A stretch of 36,592 bases of DNA from Coriobacteriia bacterium (GTDB taxonomy: Bacteria; Actinomycetota; Coriobacteriia; Coriobacteriales; JAEZZM01), in NCBI GenBank assembly GCA_030532415.1, contig JAUNLE010000009.1, positions 1 through 36,592 of the forward strand, in the 5' to 3' direction. The position numbers were made by a program, and so were the translations under genes. Under the pieces are notes generated by a model. That model had not been told where the DNA came from. It was given only the letters and a program-made list of their open reading frames with translations, and did not search any database. Numbering within the stretch: the stretch's first letter is position 1; each line of letters begins with the position of its first letter. Of the stretch, positions 2,953 to 9,703 are shown in pieces.

Positions 2953-4128
2953 ATGGCGATAGCTAAAAGCGATGGCTTTATATACGTACTTGACACTAAT
3001 GCGATTCTTACCGACGCAAACGTTTTAGATACCTATGGCGACAAATACATTGCCCTTCCCGATACTGTTTTATCAGAGATTGATAAGATCAAGCTCGGAC
3101 GCGCCGATGCAGACACCCGTTTTAATGGTCGCGAATTTTCTCGTATGCTCTTTGAACTTTCAGAAGGAAAGTCCCTTATCAATGGAGTAAGCCTTCCTCA
3201 AGGTGGAGAACTACACGTGCTTACCTTTGATGTGCGCCAAAATATGCCAGAAGGGCTTTCGTCGAAAAGTCCTGATGACCGCATCGTGGCCCAAGCAATT
3301 CGTCTGCAAAAACTCGAAAAGAGCATTGGTGGACAAGCTCGCACCGTATTGCTGGTGACTTCTGATTTAAACATGCTTCTTAAGGCACAGTCTTATGGAC
3401 TAGCTGTTTTGCAACATGAAGACAATATGAACGCTTCTTTCTCAAAGAAATATATTGTCAAGCCTTTTCAAAAGTACAAGACGCCGCTCACTATATTGAC
3501 GATTGCCCTTGCGATATTTTTAGCCACGATTTTTTCGCTCACACGCCTTTCTTCTAACCAAGCAAGCCCGTCAACTGCGCTTACTTCTTTGCCAAGCGAA
3601 TACCGAAACTTTGTAAACGAAAACCAGGCGACCATCGTTGATGCGCTCTTGCTCTTGCAAACACAACCCAATAACACAGCAGCACTTTCAACGGTGGGTA
3701 ACGCCTACTTTAACTTGTATCAAGAAAAAGTGACTGAAGACCCTGCAGCATCGGTAACCTTTGCCGAGCGAGGAACTGAGTACTTCAGCCGAAAGCTTGA
3801 GCAACAACCGCAAGACATTGACAGCCTTGCGAAACTAGGTATTTTATTCTTCTACACGGGAGACACCGACAAAGCAATTAGCACGCTTACCGACGCTTTA
3901 TCCATTGATTCTCGCGATGTGCCCTCAAACTATTACCTTGCCATTATTTATCTACAGGGACGACGTGATTTAGAACAGTCGAAGCAGCTCTTTGAAAATG
4001 TTATAGGCTTTGCAGGAAATCGAGAAGACCTTGTTCAGTACGTACAGTCATCTAAAAACTACATCAAACAGATTGATAATGAGCAGCAAAGACTTGGAAA
4101 TCCTACGCAAGATGGAATCGAGCTATAA
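2953..4128 (+). CDS. PIN-domain protein with membrane helix and TPR repeats
   Basis: 391 aa. Residues 10-157 form a PIN (PhoH-associated type) nuclease-like domain. The expected acidic positions are visible: D14 in LDTN, E42 and D44 in SEID, D108 and D109 in SPDDR, D138 in TSDLN. A single membrane helix follows at about 177-196, then a Ser/Thr-rich linker and TPR-like helices from about 220 to 385 (for example LAKLGILFFYTGDTDKAIST). The predicted layout is a cytoplasmic PIN domain with TPRs outside the membrane. PIN domains are usually Mg-dependent RNases; activity here is inferred. I chose ATG 2953 because TGGAG (2941-2945) sits 7 nt upstream; the in-frame GTG at 2935 has no ribosome site. 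It lies between two unknown genes, just ahead of hypF. Confidence 0.85.
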   Translation: MAIAKSDGFIYVLDTNAILTDANVLDTYGDKYIALPDTVLSEIDKIKLGRADADTRFNGREFSRMLFELSEGKSLINGVSLPQGGELHVLTFDVRQNMPEGLSSKSPDDRIVAQAIRLQKLEKSIGGQARTVLLVTSDLNMLLKAQSYGLAVLQHEDNMNASFSKKYIVKPFQKYKTPLTILTIALAIFLATIFSLTRLSSNQASPSTALTSLPSEYRNFVNENQATIVDALLLLQTQPNNTAALSTVGNAYFNLYQEKVTEDPAASVTFAERGTEYFSRKLEQQPQDIDSLAKLGILFFYTGDTDKAISTLTDALSIDSRDVPSNYYLAIIYLQGRRDLEQSKQLFENVIGFAGNREDLVQYVQSSKNYIKQIDNEQQRLGNPTQDGIEL

Positions 4129-4159: not shown

Positions 4160-4414
4160 ATGTGCACTAATGGCGTTAATACCAACCAACTTAAGGCTAA
4201 TGTTGAGCAAATCGACGAGGTCATTGCACTTTCTCGTCGCTGGACACACCGCGCTTATCACCTAGCAGACGATGCACAATTTGAGCGCTCAAGCAAAAAA
4301 CTTGCCGAGATTCAGGCGCTTTTAGATGAGGTTCGCTCACAGTTTGACGAACTTGAAGATTTAATTGACAAAGATGACGCGGAATTTTCAAGCGGAACTG
4401 TAAATCTCGTTTAA
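4160..4414 (+). CDS. Small helical hypothetical protein, 84 aa
   Basis: I do not recognise this 84-residue protein. It looks mostly helical. Residues 45-74 (KKLAEIQALLDEVRSQFDEL and after) have coiled-coil-like spacing, and the tail is acidic. There is no signal peptide or membrane helix. ATG 4160 is preceded by AAGGAAGGGG about 8 nt upstream, a strong ribosome site. It begins 31 nt after the PIN-TPR gene and ends 6 nt before hypF, so it is probably in the same transcript. The position suggests, without proving, a link to the neighbouring membrane proteins or to hydrogenase maturation. It is not HypA, HypB or a hydrogenase subunit. Confidence 0.75.
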   Translation: MCTNGVNTNQLKANVEQIDEVIALSRRWTHRAYHLADDAQFERSSKKLAEIQALLDEVRSQFDELEDLIDKDDAEFSSGTVNLV

Positions 4415-9385: not shown

Positions 9386-9703
9386 ATGCCAGACAAATTA
9401 ACTTCAGCAGATTTTGATGAAAAGGTTTTAAAATCTGACAAACCTTATCTTGTAGATTTTTGGGCTTCATGGTGTGGTCCTTGTCGTTCACTTGGTCCTG
9501 TTATTGAAGAAATTGCACAAGAGAACTCTGATCGTTTTGGCGTAGGTAAAGTAAACGTTGAAGAGAACCAAGATCTTGCAGCTAAATACCACGTACTTTC
9601 AATTCCAACAATGATTTTATTTAAAGGTGGTCAACCAGTTGCAACTATGGTTGGTGCTGCACCAAAGGCATCTATCATGCAACAAGTTGAAGAACATCTT
9701 TAA
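9386..9703 (+). CDS. trxA: Thioredoxin
   Basis: 105 aa, normal thioredoxin size. It is a cytoplasmic protein-disulfide reductase. The redox site is WCGPC (W29, C30, C33) in the FWASWCGPC context, and the cis-proline loop SIPTM is present. The buried Asp of the family is D24. ATG 9386 is preceded by AAAGGAG. It stands alone: 114 bp after hypE, with its own candidate promoter and a strong terminator at 9737-9769. Its codon choice (many GTT, CCA, GGT) differs from the hyp genes just upstream, as expected for a highly expressed gene. Confidence 0.97.
   Translation: MPDKLTSADFDEKVLKSDKPYLVDFWASWCGPCRSLGPVIEEIAQENSDRFGVGKVNVEENQDLAAKYHVLSIPTMILFKGGQPVATMVGAAPKASIMQQVEEHL

Follow-up and report, generated by a model that had tools for sequence, protein, structure and literature searches.

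The 36,592-nucleotide stretch of Coriobacteriia DNA analysed here (the window) encodes a protein that joins a PhoH2-type PIN domain through a single membrane helix to a TPR domain. The domain family of this PIN-TM-TPR protein is known but its architecture is new, and both its anatomy and its location are well supported. No description of the architecture was found in the open literature searched, subscription papers lying mostly outside the search. We suggest that the protein is a membrane-tethered, probably active PIN endoribonuclease with an outer TPR part that reports on wall-precursor export, a reading to which we assign a probability of roughly 0.45. In the loci examined, the gene alternates with genes for kinase-like proteins in a slot that is often found beside the lipid II flippase MurJ. 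The observation from which the analysis started was confirmed, and its interpretation as an envelope-responsive RNase is partly supported: as a hypothesis it fits the gene context. The original prediction is extended by an assignment of the gene upstream and by the link of the locus to flippase genes.

Architecture, acidic site and predicted topology

All parts of the predicted PIN-TM-TPR protein were recovered in the 391-residue frame (Table 1). PIN_4 (PF13638) matches residues 11-153 over the Pfam cut-off (E 1.5e-18), as does TPR_17 (E 2.4e-6, best stretch 282-309), and hydropathy places one membrane segment at residues 175-201. An AlphaFold model built with a 78-row alignment (mean pLDDT 89.7, pTM 0.50) consists of the PIN domain at 9-155, a helix at 158-174, the membrane helix at 176-202 and TPR helices at 223-381, so the helix originally placed at 177-196 was right. 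Given the low pTM, the relative placing of the PIN and TPR halves is not fixed by the model. Foldseek searches with the model returned TPR proteins and, for the PIN part, 3ix7 from Thermus (E 1.9e-4, 24% identity), which we take to be a YacL-kind protein, as well as the SMG6 PIN domain 2hwx and 6h25_J, a chain of the nuclear exosome complex. The chains listed in a further structural comparison match the TPR part alone and include MamA (3vty_C; Z 16.3, rmsd 3.1, 148 aligned), a Z-score that is easily high for helical repeats. A PIN profile searched against PDB sequences gave weak matches only (best E 0.035, to EST1A). The PIN fold is evident from PIN_4, the confident model and the 3ix7 and 2hwx matches, and the helical-pair repeats of a TPR domain from TPR_17 and the MamA match.

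Table 1. Features of the PIN-TM-TPR gene and its neighbours in the window
Feature	Coordinates	Strand	Basis and remarks
Upstream partner, DUF6049-type, GH57-like fold, 768 aa	620..2926	+	Profile, model; ends 26 bp before the PIN gene
PIN-TM-TPR protein, 391 aa, ATG start	2953..4128	+	Open reading frame, Pfam, conserved family
PhoH2-type PIN domain, residues 11-153	2983..3411	+	PIN_4 match, PhoH2 N-terminus match, model
D14 codon, putative catalytic acid	2992..2994	+	Conservation
E42 codon, putative catalytic acid	3076..3078	+	Conservation
D108 codon, putative catalytic acid	3274..3276	+	Conservation
D138 codon, putative catalytic acid within the DLNMLLKA motif	3364..3366	+	Conservation
Juxtamembrane helix, residues 158-174, predicted cytoplasmic side	3424..3474	+	Model, charge
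Single membrane helix, residues 176-202	3478..3558	+	Hydropathy, model
TPR domain, residues 223-381, predicted extracytoplasmic	3619..4095	+	Pfam, model, fold search
Small MCxxGxN-family protein, 84 aa, starts MCTNGVN	4160..4414	+	31 bp downstream of PIN-TM-TPR
Thioredoxin, beyond the hyp genes	9386..9703	+	Pfam Thioredoxin E 3.4e-32; in most relatives TrxB-TrxA directly follows the PIN gene

The canonical acidic positions of PIN domains, which we take to correspond to D14, E42, D108 (with D109) and D138, are intact across the family. In 81 rows, made up of the window and 80 loci found by pattern, D14, E42 and D108 were kept in 80/80 rows covering them (L087 is truncated before these positions) and D138 in 81/81. 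The latter count is biased by the search, since D138 lies inside one of the two patterns used, and copies retrieved by profile provide the fairer test. All four acids were kept in 18/18 such copies, five of which are the same loci as pattern-found ones. The acidic quartet of PIN nucleases is thus conserved in every profile-found copy and every pattern-found row covering it. Loss of the acidic set in homologs, named beforehand as evidence against the proposal, was looked for and not found. The PIN domain is also the most conserved part of the protein, with a mean pairwise identity of 0.56 compared to 0.33 for the TPR part and 0.28 for the membrane segment, in a set of 99 rows that still includes repeat loci. 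The TPR part lacks cysteine in 94 of the same 99 rows and no row has two; the window protein carries none in either domain.

Topology predictions place the two domains on opposite sides of the membrane. The membrane segment is single in 78/81 rows, with a second weak one in the other 3. The 12 residues before it hold on average 3.7 K/R and 0.05 D/E and the 12 residues after it 0.88 K/R and 0.44 D/E, K/R being higher before than after the segment in 81/81 rows. One helix with positive charge on its N-terminal side predicts a single-pass protein with its N-terminus inside, and this charge bias supports the original assignment of the PIN domain to the inside and of the TPR domain to the outside. 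The architecture is also, as proposed, unlike that of PhoH2 (PIN plus PhoH ATPase; NCBIfam NF053827) or of VapC toxins. PhoH2 has the same PIN type, its N-terminus being matched by 33/33 family PIN rows (best E 5.8e-22), but the whole-protein score is only 40.6 bits against a cut-off of 680. The window protein has no Pfam PhoH match at E 1 and carries the membrane helix and TPR domain where PhoH2 has its ATPase. YacL-type PIN-TRAM proteins, to which the 3ix7 fold match relates, share a membrane-tethered PIN domain with PIN-TM-TPR. Their membrane helices precede the PIN domain, however, and they carry a TRAM domain and are not known to have an outer TPR part.

Distribution of the family

A scan with a three-row alignment recovered PIN-TM-TPR proteins at 80 loci or more in named genomes, nearly all titled Actinomycetota. 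The loci rest on two short patterns, hence no claim is made on other phyla; the taxon names are record titles. No relative was among the 23 stretches that matched the window protein searched alone against genome contigs. A set of 60 relatives yielded two near full-length copies, 45-46% identical to the window protein, one of which ends with its contig, and the membrane and TPR parts of both align with those of the window. When the window row and its two nearest kin were withheld, the resulting profile still matched the window protein over almost its full length (E 7e-112). A 91-row tree puts the window together with L012 and L013 (100/99) on a long branch. The idea of a one-off fusion from poor assembly was rejected, as PIN-TM-TPR is a widespread family.

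The domain order, which had been proposed for a search across Coriobacteriia, is common in other orders of the class and rare in the window's own. In a class sample of 246 genomes, the family occurs in 80 of about 83 genomes of other orders, 75 with the whole model and 5 truncated or split (membership was read from genome numbering, and G306 appears in neither match table). Within the window's order, this sample contains the family in the window's own genome only, and a near full-length copy was found in just 3/297 sampled genomes of the order. The family extends to other classes as well: a copy covering most of the model was present in 35 of 346 genomes sampled across the phylum, 31 of these outside the class. 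Many further phylum genomes have matches to the PIN part only, mostly in frames of about 445-670 aa, which presumably encode PhoH2. The window genome has no second PIN domain of the same type at E 1.

Matches of Coriobacteriales to the membrane and TPR parts cover profile positions of about 140-365. In the seven loci inspected by eye (L004, L006, L096, L098, L099, L110 and L121), the TM-TPR protein lies beside TatA/TatC-like genes, which disfavours the idea that Coriobacteriales lost only the PIN part. Genomes with full-length PIN-TM-TPR can also hold a second TM-TPR gene, as in G357, and the TatA/TatC-side protein is possibly kin of the TM-TPR half. Two record titles, 'Aeromicrobium' for L032 and 'Slackia heliotrinireducens' for L080, look doubtful given the place of these loci in the tree. 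One genome (G683) has two full-length family copies, L154 and L155, on two contigs.

Gene neighbourhood and the flippase locus

The neighbourhood of the family was mapped in 93 loci on stretches no longer than about 13 kb. The set comprises the window, 79 of the 80 pattern-found loci (all but L087) and, after removal of five repeats, 13 of the 18 copies found by profile. Among recognised genes on the same strand, the nearest one upstream is of the DUF6049 type in 37 loci and encodes a small membrane protein, B, in 33, either of the two being nearest in 70/93 loci. Amj takes this position in 3 loci, MurJ in 2, an NlpC/P60 peptidoglycan-hydrolase-type gene in 2 (L146, L147) and Lon in 1. No upstream gene of these recognised kinds was found on the same strand in 15/93 loci, 7 of which have a divergent Lon, and Lon is divergent upstream in 63/93 loci altogether. 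Protein B is weakly TadE-like (TadE in 2/23, best E 0.059; Tad in 1/23, 0.0017). TrxB lies within 200 bp downstream in at least 69/93 loci and TrxA directly downstream in 7 others, the TrxB counts being lower bounds because some TrxB frames starting inside the PIN gene were not counted. The gap between the PIN gene and TrxB is between -4 and +4 bp in 35/48 measured loci, with start codons chosen by rule of thumb. Adjacency to TrxB or TrxA is far more regular in the family than adjacency to a flippase.

In the window, the run of genes is DUF6049-type, PIN-TM-TPR, small protein, HypF, HypC, HypD and HypE; TrxB is not adjacent to the PIN-TM-TPR gene, and the MurJ of this genome is on another contig. 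Both direct neighbours had been described as unassignable, which the family comparison corrects: the upstream gene is of the DUF6049 type and the downstream one belongs to a family that recurs after PIN-TM-TPR. This small MCxxGxN protein has nothing over the cut-off in Pfam or NCBIfam, its cluster occurs in 31/78 mapped loci, and a cluster that looks alike by eye occurs in 10. The MCxxGxN family recurs downstream of PIN-TM-TPR where NikR-, CbiM-, Hyp- and CooT-like genes also occur, the CooT-like gene identified by Pfam and most others by eye.

The upstream protein joins the DUF6049-type family even when its own row is withheld from the profile (E 2.4e-47) and is a divergent member of it. Out of 44 family members, 17 match PF19516 (DUF6049; best E 2.5e-12) and 10 match GH57 of Pfam (best 4.5e-16), whereas the copy in the window lacks both matches and has no adjacent MurJ. 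It models as an exported protein (mean pLDDT 79.7) with long helices at residues 11-45 and 682-711, which by eye would be a signal or anchor and a membrane helix, respectively. The best structural match of the model is the GH57 amylopullulanase 7e1y (E 6.8e-23, TM-score 0.58 by target and 0.44 by query, rmsd 7.5), pointing to a GH57 fold. The acidic columns kept in at least 75% of the 44 rows are D220, D318 and D683. As no Glu column is kept at this level, a glycan-binding pseudo-enzyme appears as likely as an enzyme. Rv3909 of M. tuberculosis is presumably a DUF6049 protein too. According to the accessible text of one report, the gene adjoins mviN and is predicted to be essential there, and the protein is a two-hybrid partner of MmpL3 (PMC6656915). 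In the accessible part of another report, C. diphtheriae has a DUF6049 protein listed as putatively secreted (PMC12445094).

The family and its partner are largely retained together. In the class sample, a DUF6049-type gene occurs in 73/246 genomes, consisting of 72 from other orders and the window's own. Other-order genomes hold both genes in 70 cases, the family alone in 10 and the partner alone in 2 (G311, G355), and a divergent partner may have been overlooked in the 10. Within the window's order and outside the class sample, G015 has both genes (L012); G008 has the PIN-TM-TPR gene (L013), with no DUF6049-type partner recognised upstream.

Elsewhere in Actinomycetota, the gene order is DUF6049-(MurJ)-slot-TrxB-TrxA, as seen in 16 loci taken for comparison after PF19516 was sought in 119 phylum genomes and matched in 56. 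These loci were chosen by hand, mainly among the top matches and genomes lacking full-length PIN-TM-TPR in the phylum sample (sample membership from genome numbering), and together with the PIN loci they represent two selected sets rather than a census. Our DUF6049-type profile matches 12 of the 16 PF19516-found loci at 103-322 bits. MurJ is present in 13 of the loci, downstream TrxB in 12, a kinase-like protein in 14 and PIN-TM-TPR in none; conversely, no kinase match was found among all open reading frames of the 93 PIN loci, on stretches of at most about 13 kb. The kinase-like protein comes after MurJ in 10 loci, is fused to MurJ in L190 and occurs with no MurJ recognised in L182, L183 and L186. 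One membrane segment was predicted in 11 of these 14 proteins, two in L185 and none at the threshold used in L179, and in the L190 fusion the segments of MurJ were counted too. Pfam Pkinase matches four slot proteins with E 7.4e-48, 4e-45, 1.2e-14 and, below the cut-off, 2.2e-4 (L178), and F5/8 type C is over the cut-off in L192 and weak in L178. An extra kinase match in L180 is on the other strand and in another frame, and L188 and L189 have neither a kinase nor PIN-TM-TPR at the locus.

The slot kinase-like proteins, including mycobacterial MviN (Rv3910), resemble PIN-TM-TPR in lying downstream of DUF6049 and, where seen, before TrxB. They differ in having a kinase fold inside and an outer part other than TPR. 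A pseudokinase linked to MviN reportedly controls mycobacterial wall synthesis. FhaA interacts with CwlM and MviN, according to the accessible text of PMC7164672. The profile of protein B also matches within about 300 bp after MurJ in L192 (3.6e-8), L184 (6.5e-8) and L188 (1.7e-7), and the best match in the DUF6049 loci, in L187 (1.5e-10), is to a frame starting inside MurJ. A small membrane protein B after MurJ (L184 11033-11458, L192 10048-10443) is common to loci with a kinase and loci with PIN-TM-TPR in the slot.

A flippase stands directly upstream of PIN-TM-TPR in 5/93 loci, all deeper-branching, with MurJ in two and Amj in three. The order in L082 and L091 is DUF6049-type gene, MurJ (E 3.8e-93 and 1.3e-78), PIN-TM-TPR and a Trx gene. 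In L148, L149 and L151, an Amj gene lies 19-44 bp upstream. The gene in L148 (6863-7741) is Amj, 'Alternate to MurJ', with E 3.2e-88, and the other two were identified by similarity to it and by PF10997. In the window genome and the 31 phylum genomes with the family, MurJ is present in 29/32 and Amj exceeds the cut-off in 3/32. These are precisely the three genomes without MurJ (G381, G396 and G410; 91-95% complete), and Amj adjoins the PIN-TM-TPR gene in all of them; two more weak Amj matches fall on MurJ places. The three Amj cases form one clade in the tree and are thus possibly a single event, to be counted once. MurJ and Amj are perhaps not the sole lipid II transporters, as suggested in the accessible part of PMC12096821.

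Possible roles of PIN-TM-TPR proteins

The PIN-TM-TPR protein would act as a single-pass membrane protein with its N-terminus inside and its C-terminus outside. The cytosolic PhoH2-type PIN domain, with its acidic site intact, most likely acts as a metal-dependent endoribonuclease tethered to the cytoplasmic face of the membrane. The TPR domain on the other side most likely docks extracytoplasmic partners, above all the DUF6049/GH57-fold protein, as well as the small TadE-like membrane protein where there is one. PIN-TM-TPR occupies, in the deeper order DUF6049-(MurJ)-(small protein)-slot-TrxB-TrxA, the place that a kinase-like protein has in other Actinomycetota. As the kinase-like proteins mostly share the layout of an inner domain, a membrane segment and an outer domain, PIN-TM-TPR might do the same kind of job by other means. 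Wall-precursor export or the state of the envelope could alter TPR contacts, which would change the activity or access of the PIN domain and lead to local RNA decay, perhaps of mRNAs of envelope proteins made at the membrane. The analysis establishes the architecture, the kept acids, the predicted topology, the conserved gene order and the alternation of slot occupants within the loci examined; we infer the nuclease activity, the TPR partners, the signal, the RNA targets and any effect on a flippase.

This reading of a membrane-tethered nuclease reporting on wall-precursor export draws on the kept acids, the PIN domain as the most conserved part, the charge bias and the partner genes upstream. 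Also in its favour are MurJ/Amj adjacency, with Amj in the only MurJ-less genomes, NlpC/P60 upstream, the kinase in 14/16 DUF6049 loci and in none of the PIN loci, and TrxB adjacency. Further support comes from co-retention with the DUF6049-type partner, the position of Rv3909 beside mviN and the RNase activity of PhoH2, which according to the accessible text of PMC7390352 has both RNase and helicase activity. Against it count the window itself, with MurJ elsewhere and TrxB not adjacent, and the 88/93 family loci in which no flippase is the nearest upstream gene. The Amj clade may be one event in genomes only 91-95% complete, 15/93 loci have no recognised upstream gene, 3/14 kinase loci have no recognised MurJ, and adjacency to Trx genes is more regular than to flippases. 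In the accessible part of the same report (PMC7390352), PhoH2 mutated in its helicase failed to act on sigF RNA, hence this PIN type may need the ATPase that PIN-TM-TPR lacks, and the PIN domain alone may be weak. A conserved acidic site could also serve to bind metal without cutting. A more specific version, in which the protein is a trans-envelope signalling ribonuclease, is possible, if doubtful. The outer TPR domain would here read the export state of lipid II, sensed through the DUF6049/GH57-fold protein, the TadE-like protein and either MurJ or Amj, and set the activity of the inner PIN nuclease.

PIN-TM-TPR could alternatively serve general RNA decay at the membrane, much as RNase Y does, with a TPR domain that only anchors or clusters and wall genes nearby as an inherited accident. 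We consider this somewhat unlikely. It would fit the strong conservation of the PIN domain, the wide spread of the family in deep lineages and the rarity of a flippase as nearest upstream gene (5/93), but sits poorly with the joint retention of the family and its DUF6049-type partner (70 both, 10 and 2 alone). Nor does it account for Amj adjoining PIN-TM-TPR in the only MurJ-less genomes of the 32, or for the kinase-like protein filling the slot in 14/16 DUF6049 loci without PIN-TM-TPR. The shared slot would also fit a non-cutting PIN domain that has RNA, metal or a phosphorylated ligand as its binding partner and exerts direct control over the flippase as a binding platform, for which we take the mycobacterial MviN pseudokinase as the model. 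The weak kinase match of L178 (E 2.2e-4, below the cut-off) is what a pseudokinase would give, and the helicase mutant of PhoH2, in the accessible part of PMC7390352, points to a PIN type that may be unable to cut by itself. A PIN domain used for binding only would be expected to lose some of the acids in some lineages, however, and all four are kept, which makes a non-nuclease regulator unlikely.

TrxB within 200 bp in at least 69/93 loci, TrxA directly adjacent in 7 others and the tight gaps to TrxB in most loci measured could indicate a redox-linked protein of a TrxB-TrxA operon in which thioredoxin status controls PIN activity. This is improbable given a TPR part free of cysteine in 94/99 rows and never with two, a window protein with none in either domain, and TrxB in the same region in 12/16 of the DUF6049 loci that lack PIN-TM-TPR. 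VapC toxins commonly have PIN domains, and a role of the PIN domain as the toxin of a toxin-antitoxin or anti-phage effector system was considered as well. PIN-TM-TPR differs from VapBC, in which a small PIN protein has an antitoxin gene beside it, in being a 391-aa membrane protein with no fixed-position antitoxin-like partner among recurring neighbour clusters of at least 60 aa. Neither the protein nor three neighbours had a PADLOC match, and the conserved neighbourhood is of the housekeeping kind. A TPR-GreA/B-C-PIN conflict system likewise combines TPR and PIN in one bacterial protein, but the accessible text of PMC8195603 describes TPR before PIN with GreA/B-C between them, a variable effector domain in front and a counter-invader setting. 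A toxin or defence role thus appears highly improbable, and we rejected it on account of the missing PADLOC match and the lack of a constant antitoxin-like partner.

With an RNase-type domain in the cytosol, a binding domain beyond the membrane and a slot in which relatives keep a kinase-type protein, PIN-TM-TPR suggests that RNA turnover is linked to the export of wall precursors, which can be tested. PIN-TM-TPR may thus link wall building to RNA decay. If this is true, RNA cleavage would take the place of control of the kinase type at the flippase locus of deep-branching Actinomycetota. The unrelated Amj in the place of MurJ beside the PIN-TM-TPR gene offers a natural test of whether flippase function itself is what the link concerns. 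The family also bears on lipid II flippase control and on the role of Rv3909, presumably of the DUF6049 kind, for which the GH57 fold of the protein upstream of PIN-TM-TPR in the window may hold too.
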